Part shown: positions 34,393 to 64,000 of the stretch, in pieces | How positions within the stretch are numbered: position 1 is the first letter of the stretch | How the letters are laid out: each line of letters starts with the position of its first letter | Assembly: GCF_018459925.1 (NCBI RefSeq) | Contig: NZ_CP075371.1 | Location: forward strand, 2,852,001 to 2,916,000 | DNA: 64,000 nt | Source: Nocardioides aquaticus | GTDB taxonomy: Bacteria > Actinomycetota > Actinomycetes > Propionibacteriales > Nocardioidaceae | Reading direction: 5' to 3' | Translations under genes and position numbers: made by a program | The notes under the pieces: model-generated | The model's database searches: none | What the model was told of the DNA's origin: nothing | What the model saw: only the letters and a program-made list of their open reading frames with translations

Positions 34393-34526
34393 GGGCACAG
34401 TGTGGGGGCTCCGGACCGTCCATAGTCCGTTTCCTCAGGTAAGTGCTGCCCGTCGTGCTATCCCTCCGCATCCGTCCGGATAACACGTGGGTAGCACGAA
34501 GGCAGGTCCTCGCGAAGCAGAACCAG

Positions 34527-34687
34527 CCCTGACCTGCGCAAGTGACGGTGGGCGATACTGGGTTCGAACCAGTTTCCGACGTACTTGGCGTCACTGGCCC
34601 TGACCTGCTCAAACCCGGTCGTGACCTGCGAACACTCGGAACAGTAGCGCGGTACGTAGCGGAACACAACGGAACAGACTGCTAAAC
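34527..34687. repeat. Recombinase-arm-like repeats around attL
   Basis: CCCTGACCTGC occurs at 34527-34537 and 34598-34608, with TGACCTGC again at 34622-34629; the same 11-mer lies just outside the core at 51541-51551. CGGAACA-type repeats occur three times between 34637 and 34677. Direct repeats beside an att core and an integrase gene are expected arm-type binding sites; this role is inferred. Confidence 0.55.
34547..34573. repeat. attL: attL core (27 bp, 3' end of tRNA-Val)
   Basis: Identical to 51561-51587. The sequence is the T arm, acceptor 3' strand and ACC of tRNA-Val(CAC) in reverse. This copy has no 5' tRNA part, so it is the displaced 3' end left by integration. The integrase gene starts about 150 bp inside. 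Confidence 0.92.
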
Positions 34688-46074: not shown

Positions 46075-49002
46075 ATGGCCGGGCCGATCCGTATCTCCGT
46101 ACTGGCCAACGCCTCGCAGGCGCGTCGGGAGCTCGACTCCACCGGACGGGCCGCAAGCGGGATGGGTGACAAGTTCGCCCGAGCAGGCCGCGCGGTCGCC
46201 ATCGGAGCCGGAGCCGGTCTGGCGATCGCCGCCGTCGGTATTGCCAAGCTGGGCATCGCCTCCACCCGGCTGGCATCGGACGCTGAGCAGTCGCTCGGCG
46301 CCACCGAGACCGTGTTCGGCCGCTACGCCGACAACGTCACCCGCGCCAGCAACAAGGCCGCAACGTCGGTCGGGCTGAGCGCCAACGAGTACCGCGAGAG
46401 CGCGAACCTGATCGGCTCGCTGCTGGGCAACCAGGGCGTGGCCACCGACCAGTTGGCCGGCAAGACTGACCGCCTGGTCAAGATCGGCGCTGACCTCGCG
46501 GCCACCTTCGGCGGCACGACCCGCGAGTCCGTCGAGGCGCTCGGGTCGGCCTTCAAGGGCGAGTTCGACCCTCTCGAGCGGTACGGCATCAGCGTCAAGC
46601 AGTCCACGGTGAACACCGAGGCGCTGCGCGTTGCCAACGTCAAGAGCACCTCGGCCTTCGAGTCACTGAGCACGGCCCAGCAGACCGCCGCCAAGCAGCA
46701 GGCCACCACCAACCTGATCCTGTCGCAGTCCTCGAAGGCCTCCGGTGCGTTCGCCCGCGAGACCGACACCCTCGCCGGGCAGCAGCAGCGCCTGACCGCG
46801 CAGACGCAGAACCTCGGCGCAACGATCGGCACCGGGCTGACCCCGGGCCTGACCACCCTCGGCAAGGTCGTCAACCGCGACGTGCTGCCCCCGCTCCAAT
46901 CCCTGGCCGAGGAGTACGCCCCCAAGGTCGGCCAAGCGTTGGGCAACCTCGCCGAGCAGGCAGGGCCGAAGCTCCAGCAAGTCCTGACCAACCTCCCCGC
47001 CGCCTTCGACCGCTTCCGCAGCAGCAACGCCGCCGGCACGGTCGGTCAGATCGCCGGGAGCCTTGCTCAACTGCGCCCGGTCGCCGAGGCCACCCTCCCG
47101 ATCCTCGCGGACGGCCTCCAGGTCACCGCGACCGTCCTGCGAGTCGCAGCAGCGAACTCCGACGTCCTCGCCCGTGCGCTGCCGGTGCTCGCTGCCGGCT
47201 ACGTCGCGGTCAAGACAGCCACCGTCGCCAGCAACATCGCCAAGGCCGCCGAGGTCGCCCTCAACCGCTCCGTGGCCGCATCCTCGACCCAGGTAGCCGG
47301 CGCCCACCGCGCAGAGACAGCCGCGATCAGCAAGATCGGTCTGGCCGCCCGAGGTGCTGCCGGTATCGGCGGACTGGGTGCCCTGGCAGTAGGCGCCAGC
47401 ACGTCGAACGACGCGCTGAGCACGCTCGCCAACGTCGGCGGTGGCGCACTGACCGGGTTCGCCGTCGGAGGCCCCATCGGAGCCGCGATCGGAGGTGGCG
47501 CCGGGCTGCTGCTGTCCCTGGCCACCAACACCGACAGTGCCGCAGACTCGTTGGCCCAGGCGCAGCCCCCGGCCGTGACGTTCGCCGACTCCCTCGACCA
47601 GGTCTCCGGCGCGGCACAGAGCAGCACCCGCTCCCTGGTGCTGATGCGCCTTGAGCAGCTCGGCGCGATCGAGTCGGCGTCCGCGCTCGGCGTCTCCACC
47701 CGCGACCTGGTCTCCTCCACCCTCGGCAATGCCTCCGCGCAGCAGCGCGTGCGTGCCGCCATCAAGGGCGCCCCGAGCGAGGTGCAGCTCACCGCCGGCG
47801 CCTACGGCAGCCTGGGGTCCGCGTACTCCGTCGCGAACAAGGATGCGACCGCGCTTGCCAAGGCTCTCGGCATCACCAAGGGCGAGTTGCGCGCCCAGCA
47901 GGCCGAGACCAGGTCGACTGCGCTGGCCACCGCCAACCTCGGGCAGGTCTACCGCGGCGTCCCGAAGGACGTCATCACCAAGATCCGAGCCCTCGGCGGC
48001 GAGGTCACGCGTCGCCAGCTCGCCGATCTGGCGCGCAGCGCGAACCTCACGCCCAAGGAAATCCGCATCATCATGCGGGCCAACAACATCAAGGGCACCG
48101 TCAAGGACATCCGCGGAGTCGGCGACACGATCCGTGAGGTCGACGAGACCCGAGCCAACCTGAAGGCCTACAGCGACAGCACGCAGCGCGGCGTCAACCT
48201 CGCAGACCGCAACGCCCGGCGCGGCGTCACCGACCTCACCCGCACCCTCGAGGGCGTCCAGCGATCCCGGGCGAACCTGAACCCGTTCCTACAGGGCGTC
48301 AACCAGGGGATGTCTCGGTCGACGTCGTCGGCGAAGAAGGGCAGCGACAACATCCGCCAGGCCGCCGAGCGCGGCCCCAGAGAGGCTCGGGCAAACCTTT
48401 CGGGCATGCAGTCCTCGGTCACGTCCGGACTGGCCGGCGTCCGCGGCGCAGCGGCGTCGGGAGGGTCCTCGGTCGGCGTCGCGCTGAAGCAAGGCATCGA
48501 GGGCGGGTTCTCCGGCGTCGTGTCATCGCTGGTGAATACCGCAGCGTCCGCAGTCAACGCCGCCGTCGCAGCCGCGAGGCGCGCGGCCGAGTCCCGGTCA
48601 CCGTCGCGGAAGATGATGCGCGTTGGGCGGGACCTCGGCCTCGGCGGAGTCATCGGCATGGACGCCGAGCGCCACCGCTGGTCCCGCGCTGGTGGCGACC
48701 TCAGCCGGGGCGCCCTGCGCGGCGCCCAGGACGCACTCAAGCGTCAGCCCGCGCTGCGGTTGGGGCTGGACGAGACCTATGCCCGTTCCCGCGGAGGACG
48801 GTCGCAGTACGTCGAGGGCATCTCGTCGGCTGCCGCTGACCGTGTCGCCGGCAGGCGCGAGCGAGGCATCAGCGTCACCTTCGAGCCCGCCGTCATCGAC
48901 CTCCGCCTGCCCGACGGCCGGACCCAGCGCGCAGAGATCCGCGCGATCGCCCGCCAAGAGTTCGCATCCATCGAGCGTGACGACGAGAGGGAGTTCCGGT
49001 GA
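46075..49002 (+). CDS. Tail tape measure protein
   Basis: 975 residues that set tail length (about 0.15 nm per residue in siphophages, so roughly 145 nm by that rule). Ala/Gln/Ser-rich helical protein with hydrophobic stretches near residues 41-63 (IGAGAGLAIAAVGIAKLGIA) and 462-485, and an Arg-rich tail. GAGGTG ribosome site 5-8 bases upstream. It is the last recognisable structural gene. Confidence 0.9.
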   Translation: MAGPIRISVLANASQARRELDSTGRAASGMGDKFARAGRAVAIGAGAGLAIAAVGIAKLGIASTRLASDAEQSLGATETVFGRYADNVTRASNKAATSVGLSANEYRESANLIGSLLGNQGVATDQLAGKTDRLVKIGADLAATFGGTTRESVEALGSAFKGEFDPLERYGISVKQSTVNTEALRVANVKSTSAFESLSTAQQTAAKQQATTNLILSQSSKASGAFARETDTLAGQQQRLTAQTQNLGATIGTGLTPGLTTLGKVVNRDVLPPLQSLAEEYAPKVGQALGNLAEQAGPKLQQVLTNLPAAFDRFRSSNAAGTVGQIAGSLAQLRPVAEATLPILADGLQVTATVLRVAAANSDVLARALPVLAAGYVAVKTATVASNIAKAAEVALNRSVAASSTQVAGAHRAETAAISKIGLAARGAAGIGGLGALAVGASTSNDALSTLANVGGGALTGFAVGGPIGAAIGGGAGLLLSLATNTDSAADSLAQAQPPAVTFADSLDQVSGAAQSSTRSLVLMRLEQLGAIESASALGVSTRDLVSSTLGNASAQQRVRAAIKGAPSEVQLTAGAYGSLGSAYSVANKDATALAKALGITKGELRAQQAETRSTALATANLGQVYRGVPKDVITKIRALGGEVTRRQLADLARSANLTPKEIRIIMRANNIKGTVKDIRGVGDTIREVDETRANLKAYSDSTQRGVNLADRNARRGVTDLTRTLEGVQRSRANLNPFLQGVNQGMSRSTSSAKKGSDNIRQAAERGPREARANLSGMQSSVTSGLAGVRGAAASGGSSVGVALKQGIEGGFSGVVSSLVNTAASAVNAAVAAARRAAESRSPSRKMMRVGRDLGLGGVIGMDAERHRWSRAGGDLSRGALRGAQDALKRQPALRLGLDETYARSRGGRSQYVEGISSAAADRVAGRRERGISVTFEPAVIDLRLPDGRTQRAEIRAIARQEFASIERDDEREFR

Positions 49003-51460: not shown

Positions 51461-51560
51461 GGGCGGTTCCTCTCAGGGAGGGCCGCGTACCTGTCTGGCA
51501 CAGACATGGCACGGGGCCGGGTTCCTTGTCGGAAACCGGCCCCTGACCTGCAACGATGCT

Positions 51561-51587
51561 GGTGGGCGATACTGGGTTCGAACCAGT
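51561..51587. repeat. attR: attR core (27 bp) inside the intact tRNA-Val(CAC)
   Basis: Identical to attL. Here the core supplies the 3' end of the tRNA, so the element restored the tRNA gene on integration. CCCTGACCTGC lies 9-10 bases outside the core on the element side. Confidence 0.92.
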
Positions 51588-51634
51588 GACCTCTTCGGTG
51601 TGAACGAAGCGCGCTACCACTGCGCCAATCGCCC
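51564..51634 (-). tRNA. tRNA-Val (anticodon CAC)
   Basis: 71 nt: acceptor GGGCGAT/ATCGCCC, D stem GCGC, anticodon loop TTCACAC (CAC), T arm ACTGG-TTCGAAC-CCAGT. Its 3' part comes from the integrated element. No CCA is encoded. Confidence 0.95.
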
Positions 51635-52827: not shown

Positions 52828-52898
52828 GGGCGATTGGCGCAGCGGTAGCGCGCTTCCTTGACACGGAAGAGGTCACTGGTTCAAACCCAGTATCGCCC
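52828..52898 (+). tRNA. tRNA-Val (anticodon GAC)
   Basis: 71 nt, nearly identical to tRNA-Val(CAC); anticodon loop TTGACAC. The defence island starts right after its 3' end, so this is a likely integration site. Confidence 0.95.
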
Positions 52899-53320
52899 AC
52901 CACGTTTGTGCAGGTCAGAGGCTTGTTTTAGCGATCAGGACCGCAGCGGGGAACATTTGGGGAACAGGGGGCCTGTTCTGGCTGACCTTGTGCCGACCAC
53001 ATCGTTCTCGGCGACGTCGCACTCCTCGGCGCCGCCAATCGCCTGCGGCGGCTTCTGCATCGACGTTTGCGATTCTCTGTGGTGACCGTTGGCCACGAGG
53101 CGTCCGTCCAGGTCTGTCGCCCAAGCGCTGGCTGCGGCGGCCCTCCGGGTGCGAGTCAGCAGCGCCACCCTGCCCCAGGCGGCAGCGCGCCGCACTTCGA
53201 TCTGCGTCGGCCGATTCGGCTCGTCTGACATCCCTCGCTCAGCAGGACGATAGGTTTACGTGGCCGCCTGCCGCATGTCGATGGGGGTTGCCCGTGCTGG
53301 CCGAATCTGAGGATGTGGAT
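52899..53320. other. Island junction: att-like repeats, no gene
   Basis: After the tRNA come ACC, an 8-base spacer and GCAGGTCAG (52910-52918, complement of the CTGACCTGC seen at attL and attR), then GGGGAACA twice at 52948-52955 and 52959-52966. No convincing gene up to the methylase; I would expect its promoter near 53230-53300 but no clear box is seen. Confidence 0.55.
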
Positions 53321-55435
53321 ATGCCCTTGAGCGAATCGCTGGCGAGTGAGGTGATGGAATCCCAAGTCCATCACCTCGATGACGGTCACGTCGTTGACTT
53401 CCTCAGGAACATTCCGGTTAGGGACACCCCCAAGGAACAGGTCCGGCAACGGATCATGCGCGTGCTGTTCCACGAGTACCAAATCACCCCAGAGGACATG
53501 GAGGCCGACTTCCCGATCAGAGCCAACGTGAATGGCAAGGCCCGGACGAAAAAGGTCGACATCGCGATCTTCGCGCCCGGCCAAGAACACACCGCGGAGA
53601 ACTTGCGTCGGGTCGTGACATGCAAACCCGAACCCAAACGCGCCAAAAATGTCGTCAAGCTCCGCACCCTTGATGAAGCCCGATCTGAGATGGACGAGCT
53701 CCAGGCCCTACTCGGTGCCGAAGATCAACCCGAGCGCAACTACGGGATGTGGACCGACAACGTCGACTTCTTCTTCTTGCAGAAGGTCAGCACCCGGTTC
53801 GGCGCCGACTATCTTGTGCGCCACGACTGGCCGCTGGCCGACGGCACAATCGGCAGCGGCCAAGCGGCCTCGAACACACAGCTGCGCCGCGCCGAGCCGG
53901 AGATGCTCAAGATCACCTTCCGGCGGTGTCACAACTACATCCACGGCAACGAGGGGCGATCCAAGGATGCCGCCTTCTGGCAGGTCCTCTACTTGCTGTT
54001 CGCCAAGATGTACGACGAGCGCGCCGCTCGCCAGGGACGGCAGCGCCGCTTTTATGTCTCCATGACGGAGCCTTATGACGACGAGGGCCGTGCTGCTATA
54101 CGTGAGCGGATCACTGATCTCTTCGAGGACGTCAAGAGGCAGTACGCCGACTCCGGCCTATTTAAGGCCAACGACGAGATTTCCCTCTCCGACCGCGCCC
54201 TCGCCTTCATTGTCAGCGAGCTTGCTCCCTACGACCTGGGCCTGACTGACATCGACGCCAAGGGGCTTGCCTACCAAGAGATCGTTGGGACGAACCTGCG
54301 TGGAGACAAGGGGCAGTACTTCACACCCCGAGGCGCGGTGAAACTGATGATCGACATCCTCGACCCGCAGGAGGACGAGACAGTCCTTGACCCGACATGC
54401 GGCACGGGCGGGTTCTTGCACGCCACCCTTACCCACCTTCACCACAGGATGCAGGCTGAAGACGAGACCCTAGGCTTGCCCGACTCGCCCGAGCAGTCCG
54501 AGCGCTACCGCGACCGGTTGCGCAAGTACGCGGACGAGCACCTCTTCGGAGCTGACTTCGACCCGGATCTGGTGCGAGCTACCGCGATGAACATCATGAC
54601 TCTGGCCGGCACCCCAGGGAACGTCTATTACATGGACTCGCTCGGATTTCCGCGTGGGCACCTCTCAGGTGTCGCGGAGGCGGGCAAGCGGATCCCTCTG
54701 GCACGGGACGGCCACCCCGGTGTCGTCGATGTCGTCCTCACGAACCCACCCTTCGGCGCCGACATCCCCATCAGCGACGAGTCCGTACTCGGCGACTTCC
54801 GGGCCGGCGTTGCCAAGTCGTGGTCGCGCGACAAGAGAACCGGTCAACTTGTCGAGAGCGCCAACGCGCCAACCTCGATGTCCCCCGAACAGCTCTTCGT
54901 CCAGCGCGCCATCGAGTGGCTCAAGCCCGGCGGGCGACTCGGCATCGTCCTGCCCAACGGCATCCTCTCCAACCCCGGCCCCAGCGATGAGGGACTTCGC
55001 CGGTTCATCCTCAAGGAGTGCTATGTGCTGGCCAGTGTTGAGCTGCCCGTGGAAACCTTCATCGTGGACGCTAACGTGAACATCCTCACCACACTGCTCT
55101 TCCTCAAGCGGAAGACCACCGACGAGAAAATCGCCGAAGAGCTCAACGGCCCCGTCTCTTACCCGATCTTCATGGCGGTTGCCGAGAAGGTCGGATTCGA
55201 CCGCCGCGGCAACGACCTCTACAAACGCCACCCGAACGGCGACATCGTGATGGAGACATACGAAGAGACCGAGTACATCACCCGCAAGGGCGTGCGCCAC
55301 ACGAAGGTGATCAAGCGCAACCGTCCGGAGATCGACAACGACCTGCCAGTCATCGCCGAAAAGTACGCGGACTTCCGGAGCGTTTATCCGATCCCCGGCA
55401 TTGACCTGCGGGCCGTCAGAAAGGCTGGGGCATGA
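53321..55435 (+). CDS. mad2: Type I-like N6-adenine DNA methyltransferase, MADS MAD2-like
   Basis: 704 residues. HsdM-type enzyme that methylates adenine in a target set by the specificity subunit. SAM motif DPTCGTGGFL at 357-366 and catalytic NPPFG at about 475-479 are intact; a helical N-terminal domain precedes them. ATG 53321 has AGGA 7 bases upstream; upstream in-frame GTGs exist. Overlaps the specificity gene (ATGA). The MADS assignment comes from the gene set and order. Confidence 0.8.
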   Translation: MPLSESLASEVMESQVHHLDDGHVVDFLRNIPVRDTPKEQVRQRIMRVLFHEYQITPEDMEADFPIRANVNGKARTKKVDIAIFAPGQEHTAENLRRVVTCKPEPKRAKNVVKLRTLDEARSEMDELQALLGAEDQPERNYGMWTDNVDFFFLQKVSTRFGADYLVRHDWPLADGTIGSGQAASNTQLRRAEPEMLKITFRRCHNYIHGNEGRSKDAAFWQVLYLLFAKMYDERAARQGRQRRFYVSMTEPYDDEGRAAIRERITDLFEDVKRQYADSGLFKANDEISLSDRALAFIVSELAPYDLGLTDIDAKGLAYQEIVGTNLRGDKGQYFTPRGAVKLMIDILDPQEDETVLDPTCGTGGFLHATLTHLHHRMQAEDETLGLPDSPEQSERYRDRLRKYADEHLFGADFDPDLVRATAMNIMTLAGTPGNVYYMDSLGFPRGHLSGVAEAGKRIPLARDGHPGVVDVVLTNPPFGADIPISDESVLGDFRAGVAKSWSRDKRTGQLVESANAPTSMSPEQLFVQRAIEWLKPGGRLGIVLPNGILSNPGPSDEGLRRFILKECYVLASVELPVETFIVDANVNILTTLLFLKRKTTDEKIAEELNGPVSYPIFMAVAEKVGFDRRGNDLYKRHPNGDIVMETYEETEYITRKGVRHTKVIKRNRPEIDNDLPVIAEKYADFRSVYPIPGIDLRAVRKAGA

Positions 55436-56856
55436 GAGTCGCCAGCCTCGATAATCCTGTACGGGTCGACTGGTTTTACGATCAACGCCTGCGGCTTGAC
55501 CCAGCGCCGTACATTTCTGGTGCACTCGAGGCGCGCAAGCGGCTAGAAGCGTTCCCGAACACCGTCCGCCTTGACAGCGTTACTGCAGGCCACAACGGCG
55601 GCATCTTCAACGGGCCGATCTTTCGCCGAATCTATCTCTCCGATCCGGAACATAGTGTTCCATTCCTTGGCAGCAAGGACATGATGACCAGCGACCTCAC
55701 AGGGCTGCCGCGCCTGAGAAGATCTGACGCCGAATCTGGCAGTCTCTCCTACCTCCGACTGGCGCCCGGGATGACGCTCATCTCATGCTCGGGGTTCTAC
55801 GCGGGACGGAGATCCTACGTGCGGCCCGACATGGCCAACATCTGGTCCTCGCAGGACGTTCTCAAAGTCGATCCTGACCCAGAAAAAATCAGGTCTGGGT
55901 ACCTTTACGCGTTCCTCGAAAGCCGATTTGGTGAAGCATTCATCAAGGCTTCAGTTTACGGGTCAGCGGTGAAGCATATCGAGCCGCACCATCTCGCAGA
56001 CCTGCCCGTGCCGCGATTCGGTGGAGACCTCGAGCAGCAGATCCATGATTTGGTCGAGGAAGGCGCACACCTGCGTGCTGCATTCCAAGCTGGCCTCGAT
56101 ACCGCCACCGAGGACTTGTTTCACAGTGTCGGTCTTCCCGAGCTCATCGACCACCGCTGGCACGACACAGAGCGGGAACTTGGCTTCGCCGAGTCACGCT
56201 GGAGCTCGGTTTCGCTACGTGCCCTCAATTACTCGCCCCGTGTGCGGCGTCTGCTTGACGCGATAGGTTCTGTCGAACATACGACCCTTGGCGAGGTTTG
56301 TGAGACTGGGCAGCTCGCATCTGGCGTGCGCTTCAAAAGGATCGATGCTGACCCGGACCACGGAGCACGACTGCTTGGTCAACGACAGGGGTTTTGGGCT
56401 CGTCCGGAAGGGCGGTGGATCAGCCTGGCGGCGGCTCCGGCCGGTGTCCGCGCGGAGGACGAAACGGTCATGATCGCTTCACAAGGCACTCTCGGCGAGC
56501 GCGAGGTCTTTTGCCGCCCAATTTTCGTGACAGGATCGTGGCTCGATCACGTCTATTCGCAGCACTTTCTCCGGGTCGTTAGTGGTGATCCAACCGTGAC
56601 GGGCGCCTACCTGTTCGCTTTCCTGCGGTCGGAGATCGCGTTCCGGATCCTACGTTCAATGAGCACCGGCGGAAAGCAGCAAGACATCCACGAGAGATTG
56701 CGACGCGAGATCCCAATTCCATTGGCGTCACTTGCTGATCGTGAGCGGATCGCCGAGACGGTCCGTCAGGCATACCGCGACCGTGATCGAGCGGATCTGT
56801 TGGACGATGAGGCGCGGGACCTGCTGACGCAGGCGGTCGAGGGAGCCGACGCCTGA
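55432..56856 (+). CDS. mad5: Type I-like specificity subunit, MADS MAD5-like
   Basis: 474 residues. Two target-recognition halves (FLGSKDMMTSDLTGLPRL region and LGEVCETGQLASGVRFKRID region), each followed by long helices (e.g. LEQQIHDLVEEGAHLRAAFQ) as in HsdS. It should choose the methylation site with MAD2. No HsdR gene is nearby. Overlaps both neighbours. Confidence 0.8.
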   Translation: MRVASLDNPVRVDWFYDQRLRLDPAPYISGALEARKRLEAFPNTVRLDSVTAGHNGGIFNGPIFRRIYLSDPEHSVPFLGSKDMMTSDLTGLPRLRRSDAESGSLSYLRLAPGMTLISCSGFYAGRRSYVRPDMANIWSSQDVLKVDPDPEKIRSGYLYAFLESRFGEAFIKASVYGSAVKHIEPHHLADLPVPRFGGDLEQQIHDLVEEGAHLRAAFQAGLDTATEDLFHSVGLPELIDHRWHDTERELGFAESRWSSVSLRALNYSPRVRRLLDAIGSVEHTTLGEVCETGQLASGVRFKRIDADPDHGARLLGQRQGFWARPEGRWISLAAAPAGVRAEDETVMIASQGTLGEREVFCRPIFVTGSWLDHVYSQHFLRVVSGDPTVTGAYLFAFLRSEIAFRILRSMSTGGKQQDIHERLRREIPIPLASLADRERIAETVRQAYRDRDRADLLDDEARDLLTQAVEGADA

Positions 56857-59800
56857 TGGCGAGGATCGTTGCGGTCAGTCCGCCAGTAAACGATGCAGAG
56901 CGACGGGTAATCGCACACCTGCGCGACGAGGCACCTGCCGACTGGACGGTCCTGCACTCCCTGGAGATTCCAGACTCCCGGGGCAACCTTTTCGAGGTGG
57001 ACCTGGTGATTGTCACCGGCCACATGGTCTACGTCATCGACGTCAAGGGCACTTTCGGCCGCATCGACGTGCACGGCAGTCGATGGATGCCTGCGGGTAG
57101 GGCCGGCTTTCACACGCCACTGCCGAAACTGCGGGAGAACGCCAAGCGACTTAAGGGACTCCTGGAAACCGCGCACGCTCAACTCTCACGAGTATACGTC
57201 GATGCGGCCGTCGTTTTGCGAGCGCCGAATGCACGTCTCGTCGACCACAACACCCCGCAGCGCGACGCCGGGGCGACGGTCAACCTCCAACACCTAGTCG
57301 CGCTACTCTCCGACGTCTCCCGGGTCCCGACCGGTGCGTTCGCGGTCGACGACGACATCGAGCGTCATCACGACACGATCGTGGAGGCGGTCGAGAACAT
57401 CGCGCAGGTGCCGTCAGGACCGCTGCAGTTTGGCAATTGGCTGGTTCTCGAGACCCTCAGCGAAACACAGCACGCCCCGGGCGTCGATGTGGTCGCCGAG
57501 TACCGGGCGAAGAACGCCAACGCTGTCCAGGGCTCCGGCACGGTGCGGCTCGTCGTCCGTCGGGCCGACCTGTACGCGGAGAAGGCCGACCGCGACAAGC
57601 AGCAGAAGCAGATCGGTGTCGCCTACGAGGCACTCGGCAAATTACCGCCGCACCCCACCATCGTCGGGGTGCGTGACTTCTTCCCCGATCCCGAGGATCG
57701 CGGATTCGTCACTGTCTACGACGACATCCCGGGCCAGGCGCTTCGGCTGCACCTAGGTGAGAACGGGACCGAGCCGCTCACCAACGACCGCATGCTTCTG
57801 ATTCTGCGACAGCTCCTGCTCGGGCTTGCCCACGCCCAGAGCCGCCGTCTCGTACACCGGGCGCTTAGCCCTGCCACCGTCTTGCTGAGTCAGGACGGGC
57901 GGGCGATGCTCACCGGTTTCGACTACGCCAAGACGGCTCAACTCCGAACCCACACCGTCGCGCTCGATGCCCACGCTGCTGCTGATAACGCGTACCTCGC
58001 CCCGGAAGCGATCGCGAGCCCGAAGAGTATGACTGCGAAGGCGGACATCTACGCCCTTGGTGTGATCGGGTTCGAGATGTTCACTGGGCACCGGCCGTTC
58101 TCCTCGATCACCTCCCAGGTGCAGGTCGGCGGGGTGCTGCCGGACAAGGACCTGATCGAGGCCGATGTCCCCGCTCCGCTGCGACACTGGCTTTCCCTGC
58201 TCTGCGCCACTAAGCCGGAGGAGCGCCCGGACGCCCGGGAGGCGTTGCGTCGCTTTGACCTCGCGGTCGGTGAGGTGAGCCGACCCAGGCGCAAGGTCGC
58301 TGGCGGTGGGGGAAAGCCCCCGACGCCGCCCTCCGGTGGTGCGGTCGCGGCGGACGACGGTGAGGACCGGCGAAATGACCCGAACTACTGGCGTCGGCTG
58401 GGGCGGGACTTCCCACTGGGCAGCAAGTACCTGGTCCAGAACAAGCTCGGCAATCCCGGGGCTACGGGGGTCGCGTACCGGGTCTTCGACACGATGCGCA
58501 ACGTCGACCGAGTCATCAAACTGATCCTGCAAGACGACAACCATCCCCGCGAGCGGGCCCGGCGTGAGGCGGCCGTGCTGGAGCGGCTGCGCGGATCTAG
58601 CCATCCCAACGTGGTCACCATGCTGGACGTCGATCTGTTGCCGCCGCCGTACCCGCACCCCTACCTGGTCTTCGAGTTCGTCGCAGGCAAGGATCTCAGC
58701 GAAGTCATCAAGGCCGGCACGCTCACGGCGGCCGACGTTCTCCGGATCGGGCTCGACGTCGCCGCCGGGCTCAAGCATTTGCACGAGCTCGACGTGTGGC
58801 ACTGCGACATCAAGCCCAGCAACCTGCTGTGGACTGAGAGCGGGGTCATGATCCTTGACTTCGGGATCGCCAAGACTCCGGAGACCACCCAGGGCCACAC
58901 CTCCAACACGCCGCGTTACACCCCACCCGACCTCGATCACGTTCCCGCCAATGCCGCCGGCTATGTCGACCGCGACCTCTACGCCCTCGGCATCACGATG
59001 TACGAGGCGCTCACCGGTGCATACCCCTGGGACGGCACCAACACCCCGCCGCCCGCGCGGCCCGCCGAGGACCCGCGCGCACGGTTCACCCTGCCCGAGG
59101 ACGTCCCGACCAAGCTGGTCGAGACAATCCTCAAGGCGATCGCCGAGCAACGTGGTGAGCGGTTCGGCAGCGCCGAAGAACTCCTGACCGCGCTTCAGGC
59201 CGCGGCGCAGCCGGCTCCGGTCGTCACACCCCAGCCGGCGGCCACCCAGCCGCATCCCGGCCTCGAGCCGAAGCGTGTCAACGAATCGACTACGGGGACC
59301 AACCCGTTCGTTGCCCATCTGCAGACCCTCTACAGCCAGTCCCGACGCAGTAATCGCGGTACTCGCGGCATGGATGCGGAAGAGTTCCGGGTCTACGTGC
59401 CGACCGCCCTCGACCTCGCGCTTACCAAGGCGGTGCTCGACGGGGCGCATTCACTGGTGATCGTCACCGGCAACGCAGGCGACGGGAAGACCGCGTTCCT
59501 GGAGAATCTCGCCTCCGAGGCGAGGACGCGAGGTGCAGTCTTCACCTCGGAACGGCCCAACGGCGCCGACTTCGAGCTCGACGGGCGCCGGTTCCGCACC
59601 AACTACGACGGCAGCCAGGACGAGGATGGTGTGGTCAGCGACGTCGTCCTGGAGGACTTCTTCACGCCGTTCGCCGGCCGCGACCAGGTGGGCATCCTGA
59701 CCGGTGAGACCCGATTGATCGCGGTAAACGAGGGCCGCCTCATCGACTTCCTTAGCCATCGCCCCGACAAGTTCGGCGCTCTCGCCACCCAGGTCGACGC

Positions 59801-61118
59801 CGGCCTGTGCGGCGAGGCCGAGCCCGATGTCGTCGCCGTGGTGAACCTCAACCTCCGCGATGTCACCGTCCGGCCCGCCGACACCGCCAACGGAGAAGGA
59901 TCCGACGACTCCATCCTCGAGCGCATGCTCGACTCGATGACCCGGCCCGAGTTCTGGACCGGCTGTAACGGATGCGAGCTCTTTGACTCCTGTTACGCAC
60001 GGCGCAACTCCGCCGCCGCGGCGCAGCCGGTGCTTGGCGACCAAATTAAGGAGCGGCTGCGCCGGGTCTACGAGGTGGCCCAGTTGCGCGGCCGGCTCCA
60101 CATCACCCTGCGTGACCTGCGCTCCGCCCTCGCCTACACACTCACCTCGGGGCGGGACTGCGGCGAGATCCATGAGCTCTACGTCGCCGGCGATCGTGAC
60201 GAGATCCTCGCCGGCCATTACTTCAACGCCTACCGCGGTGGCGACCCCGCCCTGGAGCGTGACCGTTTGCTGGTCCAGCTTCGGCAGGTCGACGTCGCCC
60301 GACTGCCGCAACCGGTGCTTGACCGCCGGCTAGCCAGTGAAGGGCTGCTCGACCAGCTGCTCATCACTACTAACGGGCCGGCGCCCGAGCGGGAGCTGCT
60401 GGACCTTCTTTACGCGGCGGCCTCGGCTCCTGACGCCGCGCCGGGCGCGATGCTTCCGTTCGTGTCGACCGCACGCCGGCTGTCCTACTTCGAGATGCGA
60501 GACCCGTCAGACGCGCTGCGGATGCTGCCCTACGCCTCGGTCCAGGCTTTCCTCGACCAGCTCGACGGCCCGGGGCCGGTGCGCACCGGGCAGTTCCTCG
60601 CCGCGCTGAACCGCAGCGAAGGCGTGGTTTCCTCGGCAGCCACCGGCGACGGACTCGTGACCCAGGTCCGCGACGTCAACCGCGGCACGGTCCGCAGTCT
60701 GCGCCGCTTCCTAGGCGCAGGGTTCCGGTCCGGAAGGGTCGGCACCAACTCGCACCCGTACTTGGAGACCAGGGCAACCGCGCTCCGACTTTCCTACACC
60801 GATCCCGACCGCCCCGGCGCCCCCACGGCGGAGCTGCGGATCGGACTCGACCTGTACGAACTCATCGAGCGGTTTCGCCGTGGCTACCAGGCATCGGTCG
60901 ATGACGACCAGGGCTACGCGCTGGCTTTGACCGTCTTCAAGAACCAGCTCGCCGCTGTCCCTTACCAGGAGGTGCTCCTCACCGTCGACGGCTCGGCGAT
61001 GCATACCGTGCGTCGCACCGAGGACGGCGTACTCCACCTGACCGCTCACACCGGCCGGGCCGAGACCGAAGAAGACATACACGACATCGTTGCGACCGAG
61101 GAGACCGAATGGCGCTAG
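56856..61118 (+). CDS. mad6: Giant NERD-pseudokinase-kinase-ATPase protein, MADS MAD6-like
   Basis: 1420 residues. NERD nuclease-like domain at about 10-120 (LFEVDLVIVTG, YVIDVKG). A first kinase-like domain (about 190-470) has HRALSPATV at 334 and GFDYAK at about 355 instead of HRD and DFG, so it is probably inactive. A second kinase (about 530-790) is intact: Lys 555 (VIKLIL), HCDIKPSN at 649, DFG at 668. An ATPase domain follows with Walker A GNAGDGKT at 872 and Cys at 1037, 1040, 1046. PglW of BREX is a looser relative. Confidence 0.78.
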   Translation: MARIVAVSPPVNDAERRVIAHLRDEAPADWTVLHSLEIPDSRGNLFEVDLVIVTGHMVYVIDVKGTFGRIDVHGSRWMPAGRAGFHTPLPKLRENAKRLKGLLETAHAQLSRVYVDAAVVLRAPNARLVDHNTPQRDAGATVNLQHLVALLSDVSRVPTGAFAVDDDIERHHDTIVEAVENIAQVPSGPLQFGNWLVLETLSETQHAPGVDVVAEYRAKNANAVQGSGTVRLVVRRADLYAEKADRDKQQKQIGVAYEALGKLPPHPTIVGVRDFFPDPEDRGFVTVYDDIPGQALRLHLGENGTEPLTNDRMLLILRQLLLGLAHAQSRRLVHRALSPATVLLSQDGRAMLTGFDYAKTAQLRTHTVALDAHAAADNAYLAPEAIASPKSMTAKADIYALGVIGFEMFTGHRPFSSITSQVQVGGVLPDKDLIEADVPAPLRHWLSLLCATKPEERPDAREALRRFDLAVGEVSRPRRKVAGGGGKPPTPPSGGAVAADDGEDRRNDPNYWRRLGRDFPLGSKYLVQNKLGNPGATGVAYRVFDTMRNVDRVIKLILQDDNHPRERARREAAVLERLRGSSHPNVVTMLDVDLLPPPYPHPYLVFEFVAGKDLSEVIKAGTLTAADVLRIGLDVAAGLKHLHELDVWHCDIKPSNLLWTESGVMILDFGIAKTPETTQGHTSNTPRYTPPDLDHVPANAAGYVDRDLYALGITMYEALTGAYPWDGTNTPPPARPAEDPRARFTLPEDVPTKLVETILKAIAEQRGERFGSAEELLTALQAAAQPAPVVTPQPAATQPHPGLEPKRVNESTTGTNPFVAHLQTLYSQSRRSNRGTRGMDAEEFRVYVPTALDLALTKAVLDGAHSLVIVTGNAGDGKTAFLENLASEARTRGAVFTSERPNGADFELDGRRFRTNYDGSQDEDGVVSDVVLEDFFTPFAGRDQVGILTGETRLIAVNEGRLIDFLSHRPDKFGALATQVDAGLCGEAEPDVVAVVNLNLRDVTVRPADTANGEGSDDSILERMLDSMTRPEFWTGCNGCELFDSCYARRNSAAAAQPVLGDQIKERLRRVYEVAQLRGRLHITLRDLRSALAYTLTSGRDCGEIHELYVAGDRDEILAGHYFNAYRGGDPALERDRLLVQLRQVDVARLPQPVLDRRLASEGLLDQLLITTNGPAPERELLDLLYAAASAPDAAPGAMLPFVSTARRLSYFEMRDPSDALRMLPYASVQAFLDQLDGPGPVRTGQFLAALNRSEGVVSSAATGDGLVTQVRDVNRGTVRSLRRFLGAGFRSGRVGTNSHPYLETRATALRLSYTDPDRPGAPTAELRIGLDLYELIERFRRGYQASVDDDQGYALALTVFKNQLAAVPYQEVLLTVDGSAMHTVRRTEDGVLHLTAHTGRAETEEDIHDIVATEETEWR

Positions 61119-62748
61119 ACAGCAAGGACCGCGCCTTCCGCTGTGACGCGATCAGCCGCATCGACTACAAGACCCTCACCATGGATCGCGTACTGACCGC
61201 GTTTCTCGGCCGACTCTGGCACCATGGCGTGCCCAGCCGAATGGCGCGAGCGAACGAGCTCACCGTTGACGACTACGTCTACCTCCTCACCGACGAGGCG
61301 TACCAAGACAAATTCGACGGGTTCAACAACAATGAGGACATCTCTCGGCGCTGGGCGGCCACTCACCTGCTCGACCTCGTCAACCGTGGTCGGGTTACCG
61401 AAGGGGTCGCTGGCCCACGGCCGCTGCACGGCTTCGCCTACCGGCTGCGTAACAGCCGCCGCTCCCGACCCTACGGCGCCGACGAACAGCTGTACGAGCT
61501 TCTCGCCGTTAACGGGACAGCCGTTGAAATGCTCCGGTCGTTCTTCTTCGCCGACATCGACCCCGTCACCGGAAAGCCGGTGCCCGGTCCTGACATCGAC
61601 GTCGAATCGCAGGCGCTGCTGAGCATGGTCGCCGCCACTCGAGGCGACGCCCAGGACCGTGCCGAGACCACACCGCGAAAGGAGCAGCACCAGCCCTGCC
61701 GTCAACCGGCCGACCTGCTCGCAGAAGACGTGCTGCGCCTGCTGCTGCACCGCGAGTTCATGCCGCGGACCGTGCTGGTCGAGCACCTCAAGGTCCTGCT
61801 CTCCTTCCATATGGCCCTTTATCACTTGCGGATGTTCAAGCTCATCCCGGCGGCAGTGCGAGGCGCAGCGGTCGACCCGTCCTGCCGGTCTGGCCACCAG
61901 CCGGGGGGCAGTGTCCCTACTTGCCACACCTTCTAGTCGACGCCGTCGACTCCGAGGACAGCCCTGCGGCGGCGTACGCGGTCAAGAGCGCCGAGGTGTG
62001 GTACGGCCGGATCCCGCAGTTCGTCCGTGGCACCTTCGCCGTACTCAAGCTCACCGACTTCGCGACCGACCTCTCGCGGCACGGCAAGTTCACCATGCGT
62101 CGGGCCAAAGAGGATCTGGCGGTTACCGAGGCCGTCGCGCTTCTGGGCGAAAGGTACGCCAAGGACCGCGAGACCTTCTTCGACATGCGGGTACGCCGCA
62201 TCCTCGACGACGAGGCGGAGCCGCTCGCGCCCGAGCTGCAGACCATCGTCGACCTCGGTCTCGACCGGTTCGACACCTACCTCGAGTTGATCATGCACTA
62301 CCGCGGTACGTTCCAGCGTAAGTATCTGGTCGACTGCATGGACTCGTTGCTGATGAAGAACCGGCCCGGCCAACTGGTGGCGCAGCCTCGAGGCAAGTCG
62401 GGTCTCCGACGCTTCGTTCTGGACTCGCGGCTGCTAGAGGTGCTGCTCCAGGTGAGTCTGGTCCAGCCCGACGAGTCAGGCACGATGCGGACCAAATCGA
62501 TGCGGGTCGACGAGGTACTCGACCTGCTGCGAACTCGTTACGGCCTCTACATCGACACCCTGCCCGAGGCCGACGGCTTCCACGGCCCCGATCTACTCGA
62601 CCAAGCCGCCCTGCGCGCCAACAGTGCCGCCTTCGTCGAGCGGCTGAGAGAGATCGGGTACTACCGCGACATGTCGGATGCCTACCTAACCCAGACCGTC
62701 ACCCCGCGCTTCACCATCGGCGCCACCCGGGAGAGGAGCGGACGATGA
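61109..62748 (+). pseudogene. mad7: MAD7-like gene split by a frameshift in a G6 run
   Basis: Frame 1 (61109-61936) starts MALDSKDRAFRCDAISRIDY and stops after 275 residues; the same protein resumes in another frame to 62748 (ending VTPRFTIGATRERSGR). Adding one G to the run at 61903-61908 joins them into about 546 residues. Start overlaps mad6, end overlaps mad8 as ATGA, so both ends are under gene-like constraint. Could be a real mutation, phase variation or a sequencing error. Domain function unknown. Confidence 0.72.
61903..61908 (+). repeat. G6 homopolymer at the mad7 frame break
   Basis: The two reading frames of mad7 meet around this run; one additional G restores the frame through PGGQCPYLPHLLVD. 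Homopolymer G runs are prone to slippage and to read errors. Confidence 0.65.
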
Positions 62749-64000
62749 CGGCAGCATCCATCGGGCTCGTCGAGCCCACGCCCGCTGACCAACGCAGCGC
62801 CCTCGAAGATGTCCTGGTCCCCTACCTGCTCGGCCTCCTCACTGACCGGCAGGCGGGACACTGCATGCGGGTCACCGAGCTCGACGAGAACCTCGCCGGC
62901 CGGCTCGTGCACCGACTGCGCACCGCGACCCTCCCAGGCACCGTGGTTTGCCTACTCGCCTCCGACCAGGACGCCGCCAGCAAAGAGGACGACGCACTTG
63001 TCAGCAGCACCCAGCTAGTCGAGCTACGCAACCGACCGGTCGAGGAGTCCTCCGGCCCGTTAATGGTCTTCGTCCCGCCTGGGTTACGAGCCAGCGCCGA
63101 AGACTCCTTCGGGGTGGCGACCTTCGAAGAGGTGGAGATCCGCGACGCCTACGCCCGGCTCCACGAAGAGTTGTTGAACCGGGTGCCCGCTGCTTTACGA
63201 GATGGCCTCGACCGTCTGCGTGAGCTGTTGAAGCAGAAAGGTGACGGCCGTGGCAACGACCAGGCTTGGGTGTTCTACGTGCTGACCATCGCCGCCAACG
63301 GTTACGAGCCCGAAGCCGCCGGCGCTGCGATCTACTGCTTCGGGCTGGTGCCCGATCTCGGCCTCTTCACCTCCGGCGAAGAGGTCGCCGACCGCGCTAG
63401 CCGTAACCGCCTCCAGGTGGACGACCTCAGCCGCACCGAGCTCGATGAACGCCAGCGGGTCCTAGGTCTCGGACTCTCCGATACCAGTTTCACAGCCAAG
63501 CTCGCCCGCTTCGCCGGTGAGATCGGTTTGGAAGACCGCAACGTCTGGACCCGGCGGATCATCACCGACCGCGCCAACCGCGACCTCACATTCGACCAGT
63601 GGCCCGCCCGCCGCCAGGAAGAGGCGCTCCTGGGCATCGACGTGCGACTCCTCGACCTCCCACACGTCGGCGACAGCGCCGAGCACCTGACGACCTACCC
63701 GGTGTTGGAGTCCCTCGCCGGGCAGCCTTACCTCGTCGCCGGTGTCAACGGTGTCAAGACACTGGTCAGCCAGATCGCCGTAGAGCCGGCTCTCACTCCG
63801 AACGATGGGCTTCTCAAGCTCCGCGTAGAGGTCGTCTCCGAAGACGGCGGCCCCACCAGCCGGGCGGTCAACGTCGCCGCTGGCGTACGGCCGAGGAGCG
63901 ATTACAAGGCCACGCTCCGCAACCTCCACAAGGCCGACCTCGACGAAGGGTGGCACTACTTAGAGGTCACCCCGGTAGCCGACGCTGATCGCAGGATCGG
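62745..64000 (+). CDS. mad8: MAD8-like ATPase-type protein, 5' part (cut by window edge)
   Basis: 418 codons are open to the window end with no stop. Begins MTAASIGLVEPTPADQRSAL. The segment LMVFVPPGLRASAEDSFGVA followed by TFEEVEI resembles the N-terminal part of DptH/HerA-like ATPases of DNA-modification defence systems; the Walker motifs would lie beyond the window. ATGA overlap with mad7. Confidence 0.65.
   Translation, partial: MTAASIGLVEPTPADQRSALEDVLVPYLLGLLTDRQAGHCMRVTELDENLAGRLVHRLRTATLPGTVVCLLASDQDAASKEDDALVSSTQLVELRNRPVEESSGPLMVFVPPGLRASAEDSFGVATFEEVEIRDAYARLHEELLNRVPAALRDGLDRLRELLKQKGDGRGNDQAWVFYVLTIAANGYEPEAAGAAIYCFGLVPDLGLFTSGEEVADRASRNRLQVDDLSRTELDERQRVLGLGLSDTSFTAKLARFAGEIGLEDRNVWTRRIITDRANRDLTFDQWPARRQEEALLGIDVRLLDLPHVGDSAEHLTTYPVLESLAGQPYLVAGVNGVKTLVSQIAVEPALTPNDGLLKLRVEVVSEDGGPTSRAVNVAAGVRPRSDYKATLRNLHKADLDEGWHYLEVTPVADADRRI

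Follow-up and report, generated by a model that had tools for sequence, protein, structure and literature searches.

Which restriction activity accompanies an adenine methylase and a specificity subunit in an operon with no HsdR? This question is raised by overlapping genes on the + strand, in the order mad2-mad5-mad6-mad7-mad8, at the right end of a stretch of 64 kb from the 4.58-Mb genome of Nocardioides aquaticus (GCF_018459925.1, contig NZ_CP075371.1, forward strand 2,852,001-2,916,000; window position 61115 is G000:C1:2913115), hereafter the window. We consider it quite probable that these genes make up a compact five-gene restriction-modification operon of the methylation-associated defence system (MADS) type, situated on an integrative island and equipped with a restriction complex of the DndFGH/SspFGH kind.

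Gene content and the assignment to MADS

An earlier note on this DNA had proposed a single operon of overlapping genes, which the gene coordinates bear out, with successive overlaps of 4, 1, 10, 16 (between both mad7 frames) and 4 bases. Its assignment of the genes to mad2, mad5, mad6, mad7 and mad8 agrees with the curated NCBIfam and the PADLOC models; the NCBIfam scores lie far above chance (Table 1), and the PADLOC mad8 model matches Mad8 at 1.8e-39. As in MADS, MAD2, MAD5, MAD6 and MAD8 exceed their curated cut-offs and MAD7 is recovered in halves, all in the identical order. The "unknown protein" of the note proved to be this MAD7, broken over two frames. Its ATPase-type last gene is indeed MAD8 with a HerA-type ATPase, but it is not complete in the window, the end of which at 64000 leaves only the N-terminal 418 codons inside; extending the sequence past 64,000, as the note had advised, brought the gene to its end at 68180.

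The operon differs from known MADS in its broken mad7, in its placement on an integrative island and in the lack of mad1 (helix-turn-helix), mad3 (ATPase) and mad4. MADS reportedly consists of eight genes, in agreement with the existence of NCBIfam models MAD1 to MAD8. The MAD3 (E ≤ 1e-15) and MAD4 (E ≤ 0.01) models had no match anywhere in the genome, a result that is weak taken alone since both searches were silent in all control genomes, and MAD1 (E ≤ 1e-4) gave seven matches, none passing, the best at 40.3 bits against a cut-off of 80. These models do match the genes called mad1, mad3 and mad4 in the relatives L098, L059 and L053. They were used in place of the PADLOC models, of which mad3 was uninformative (183 matches from the ABC-ATPase background; positive in 14 of 14 control genomes) and mad4 gave one match at E 0.705 while being positive in 11 of the 14 controls. 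A fusion of mad3 into mad6 was rejected, as the C-terminal part of Mad6 is SspF/DndF-like and is kept where a separate mad3 exists (e.g. L052). Between the two options left by the note, a compact variant or genes lying past the window, the lack of any genome-wide match over cut-off favors the former and not the latter. Judged by its sequence, the operon is a shortened form of the known MADS defence system.

The absence of HsdR, also claimed in the note, held among the operon proteins and the Pfam-scanned open reading frames (ORFs) over ~10 kb rightward, the left flank being unscanned. A type I-like or BREX-like methylation system, with a giant PglW-like kinase protein as the effector rather than a DndFGH-type complex, would share with this operon a methylase and a NERD-kinase protein, and the PglW model does match Mad6 across the NERD domain and both kinases. 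The profile check that the note had suggested nonetheless went in favor of MADS: PglW reaches 206 bits against a cut-off of 990, as opposed to the MAD6 score in Table 1, neither PglZ nor BrxC turns up in the complete NCBIfam lists for the operon proteins, and the Dnd/Ssp links described below span Mad6, Mad7 and Mad8. We regard such a type I-like or BREX-like system as very unlikely.

Mad2 displays the motifs DPTCGTGG and NPPF. Its N-terminus is weakly HSDR_N-like (PF13588, 23.4 bits, below the cut-off of 25); K102 of the would-be nuclease motif was compared across 71 relatives and the window protein and is another residue in roughly half of them, and this variability indicates that it is not a conserved nuclease site.

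Table 1. Features of the operon and its integration site, in window numbering
Feature	Position	Strand	Description	Support
mad2	53321-55435	+	N6-adenine DNA methylase, 704 residues	NF047738 964 bits (cut-off 720), PF02384
mad5	55432-56856	+	specificity (S) subunit, 474 residues	NF047740 583 bits (cut-off 400)
mad6	56856-61118	+	1420 residues	NF047741 735 bits (cut-off 460)
Mad6 C-terminal DndF/SspF-like part	59343-61115	+	residues 830-1420	Walker A GNAGDGKT at 872-879
mad7 first half	61109-61936	+	frame 1, premature stop	NF047733 positions 1-264, 285 bits
six-G run	61903-61908	+	junction of mad7 frames	
mad7 second half	61921-62748	+	other frame	NF047733 positions 269-529, 307 bits
mad8	62745-68180 (L002:2745-8180)	+	1811 residues	NF047742 208 bits (cut-off 175)
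tRNA-Val(gac)	52828-52902	+	integration site	ARAGORN
attL-like repeat	52878-52900	+	23 bp, in tRNA 3' end	

Proposed kinship of Mad6, Mad7 and Mad8 with DndFGH and SspFGH

Mad6 combines a NERD nuclease-like domain, a pseudokinase, a Ser/Thr kinase and a DndF/SspF-like ATPase. This last, C-terminal part (Mad6C) is matched by the PADLOC profiles for SspF (1.5e-24) and DndF (3.1e-05) in the window protein, and among 32 chosen relatives by SspF in all 32 and by DndF in 31, so that it corresponds to the DndF-like P-loop subunit. Mad7 shows the triple winged helix fold of DndG in one fold match, and the SspG profile, run against 296 genomes, gave two weak matches, one of them the second mad7 half of this genome. 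Mad8 carries a D...ExK motif (residues 1147-1168) and a HerA-type ATPase (~1430-1808); its putative methylase-like, D...ExK and HerA parts may correspond, in that order, to those of DndH (inactive methylase, restriction endonuclease, HerA/FtsK). The operon shares with DndFGH (DptFGH) the F-G-H gene order, and the SspF, SspG and SspH profiles reach Mad6C, Mad7 and some of the Mad8 relatives. The partner differs from that of DndFGH, being an adenine methylase with an S subunit rather than dndABCDE, and NERD and kinase domains are fused to F; Rakesh et al. 2024 (PMC10853773) list such a NERD/kinase fusion for some DndF. The mark of Ssp, in contrast, is a single-strand phosphorothioation, according to the SspFGH paper (PMC8092258). 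No phosphorothioate genes are found in the families of the operon proteins, dndABCDE and sspABCD not having been searched genome-wide.

These likenesses suggest how the operon would work. To go by their domains, Mad2 and the target-recognition subunit Mad5 would methylate the adenine of some motif in the host DNA. Restriction would fall to a complex with three components: the Mad6 ATPase end as F, Mad7, a DNA-binding protein with winged helices, as G, and Mad8, both nuclease and translocase, as H. This complex would load on DNA, move along it and nick where the mark is missing. A study of the Dnd proteins (PMC11662687) describes DndF, DndG and DndH as forming a complex in a 2:2:1 ratio that couples nicking to translocation, the ATPase of which is repressed by the phosphorothioate mark, and the N6-methyladenine (m6A) mark would restrain the Mad6C-Mad7-Mad8 complex as phosphorothioate reportedly does DndFGH. 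The least certain step concerns the fused Mad6 kinase, possibly with the NERD domain, which would be a switch or a back-up effector: a phage Ser/Thr/Tyr kinase phosphorylates and inactivates DndFGH, although phosphorylation alone is insufficient in the cell according to the authors (PMC12345140), and hence, as a guess, a kinase fused to F may be a built-in switch.

Several observations weigh against this picture. The Dnd/Ssp link comes from PADLOC profiles plus one fold match. When sequence profiles were compared with PDB, Mad6C returned P-loop noise only and Mad7 no chain at E ≤ 10, though DndG is in PDB. The window Mad8 scores just 0.0014 with SspH and 0.033 with DndH, and the commonest DndH model is missed by 10 of the 26 Mad8 relatives; its predicted structure is middling (pLDDT 79.4) and in Foldseek draws generic methylase folds (top E 7.1e-03) and no nuclease. 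The authors of the SspFGH study found SspFGH and DndFGH to share no sequence homology (PMC8092258). Furthermore, mad7 in this record is two frames and not one open frame, and both methylation and restriction by the operon are predicted functions. A separate point, against the mad2 assignment, is that the PADLOC type II methylase model PDLC03318 outscores the shorter PADLOC mad2 model on Mad2 (697 against 245 bits), in contrast to the NCBIfam MAD2 score of that same protein. A search with DptG (TIGR03236) of 396 genomes, controls included, had no match and therefore yielded no Dnd relatives for profile comparison.

The frame break in mad7

The MAD7 family model matches G000:C1:2913115-2913903 and 2913906-2914712 (window 61115-61903 and 61906-62712) in different frames, as read from a three-frame translation, and the two matches adjoin at a run of six G. 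Both halves score below the 410-bit cut-off, which is set for the whole protein. A search of genome contigs with a profile built from 14 Mad7 proteins found 238 relatives, of which the best 80 were analysed; this set consequently leans to Streptomyces and close relatives. (A protein search queried with one mad7 half had given fragment-length proteins.) In 79 of these 80 loci mad7 is one open frame with at least 85% query coverage, the other (L037) being truncated by a contig end, although the choice of loci by their match to Mad7 is biased to intact copies. Other core genes are broken or short, with no contig-end cut, in three of the 80: mad6 has a stop in L075 and encodes only 346 residues in L079, and mad8 has a frame change in L095. 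A short BLAST span is not always a break, given that the mad8 frame is of full length in L052, L060, L061 and L066.

The adjoining frames and the intact mad7 of the relatives are what would be expected of a decaying MADS remnant, with a mad7 pseudogene and a restriction arm that no longer functions in this strain. Yet the remaining genes are full-length with intact motifs, and the lone break is young. The six-G run suits a sequencing slip equally; no longer G run was found in the window, which has 10 runs of six and none of 7-9. The lack of mad1, mad3 and mad4 is not a sign of decay either, since the same form recurs in the intact relatives L038, L039 and L042. The comparison set also favors intact copies. 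We give decay a substantial but less than even chance.

Phase variation through G runs occurs in the Pgl system, and a regulated frameshift, by phase variation of the six-G run or by a ribosomal shift, could tune restriction via mad7. The G run is placed between the mad7 frames, and both halves are well conserved against the model, together covering positions 1-264 and 269-529 of its 529. The run is short, and a split mad7 was seen in none of the 80 loci, a set biased as above; we think such regulation very unlikely. Sequencing error, recent mutation or switching may each underlie the break in mad7. Unless it is an artefact of sequencing, an operon with mad7 split over two frames probably does no more at present than modify DNA.

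Relatives, genomic setting and implications

Both mad2 and mad5 were found in 67 of the 80 loci. They are adjacent in 39 of these, of which 21 also hold an AIPR-family gene and five mad1; "adjacent" here covers the mad2-mad5 junction only. In 21 loci mad3 and mad4 lie between them, and seven loci have a second mad2-like methylase. The other 13 loci were unscorable, mostly since the contig or stretch ends first, though L043, L045 and L079 retain at least 5.9 kb upstream of mad6 with no mad2 or mad5 match. Other DNA separates mad5 from mad6 in L070, L072 and L090, and mad3 and mad4 are downstream in L063. In a tree built on the C-terminal part of Mad6 (68 rows), Haloactinopolyspora alba, Kribbella pratensis and Arthrobacter sp. 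B6 fall into one group with the window (100/100); each of the three has the compact form and no mad1 match. The mad3-mad4 form needs nine changes on this tree, at least eight of them forced by starred branches, so it was repeatedly gained or lost.

MAD7 matches, counting this genome, occur in six of 341 genomes of the family of the window and in three of 396 sampled from its phylum. The five other loci of the family, L010 to L014 (G134, G320, G228, G169 and G096), have genes resembling mad6, mad7 and mad8, but neither mad2 nor mad5 was matched in the 20 kb read. The gene preceding mad6 is a UvrD-like helicase in L010, L011 and L014, the three scanned, and an ORF of similar length takes this place in L012 and L013. 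As the NCBIfam MAD7 model passes its cut-off in four of these five loci, this model calls MADS too often when used alone. A BrxC gene lies nearby in L012; in L014 there are a type IIG enzyme and a helicase that has matches of the Snf2 type.

The loci with a tandem second mad2-like methylase (L083, L087, L089, L092, L093, L094 and L096) form one clade, across three phyla, on the Mad6 tree, and in all seven the second P of NPPF in that enzyme is replaced by W. An AIPR/AbiU-like gene is linked to MADS loci of Actinomycetota (L019-L036, L049, L055, L068, L071, L074, L077 and others), lying upstream of mad2 except in four loci, where it stands on the opposite strand between mad5 and mad6.

The claim of an island at a tRNA-Val was confirmed: the repeat in tRNA-Val(gac) has an attR-like twin at G000:C1:2939768-2939790, 34.9 kb rightward, next to a gene for a tyrosine integrase (PF00589, 53.8 bits). 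The island also contains genes for a TrwC relaxase and a TIR-domain protein, as well as two of transposase type that have integrase core domains. Its far end had escaped the earlier note, which saw a MADS-like operon and missed as well the mad7 frame break and the relationship to DndFGH. Immediately right of the island is an ORF (L107:9108-9887), the start of which, read by eye, resembles a signal peptide. Elsewhere in the window, 34521-34573 is an 85% match to the 3' part of a tRNA-Val and lies left of tRNA-Val(cac) at 51560-51634; between these sites is an ORF (46075-49002) that looks tape-measure-like by eye and has no Pfam match. Together these features probably mark another integrated element.

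A 2026 review (PMC12904381) counts the restriction mechanism of MADS as unknown, with its restriction column empty, and names MADS beside phosphorothioate systems as systems of at least five subunits. In the parts of the literature that we searched we met no statement of a MADS-DndFGH kinship, and we do not claim its absence from print. We put at about even chances the wider reading that the whole MADS class is adenine-methylation restriction-modification powered by an engine of the DndFGH type. In that case FGH is a general restriction motor that evolution has combined with phosphorothioate marks in Dnd and Ssp, with m6A in MADS and possibly with neighbours of the BREX or type IIG kind, and the F-fused kinase would switch this motor in cis through phosphorylation, a modification of the sort that a phage kinase reportedly turns on DndFGH. 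The compact five-gene form of MADS is the easier to clone. Should Mad6C, Mad7 and Mad8 form a DndFGH-type complex, the assays developed for DndFGH (nicking, translocation and mark-repressed ATPase) apply directly to MADS, and methylation and phosphorothioate restriction-modification would be joined by one common effector.
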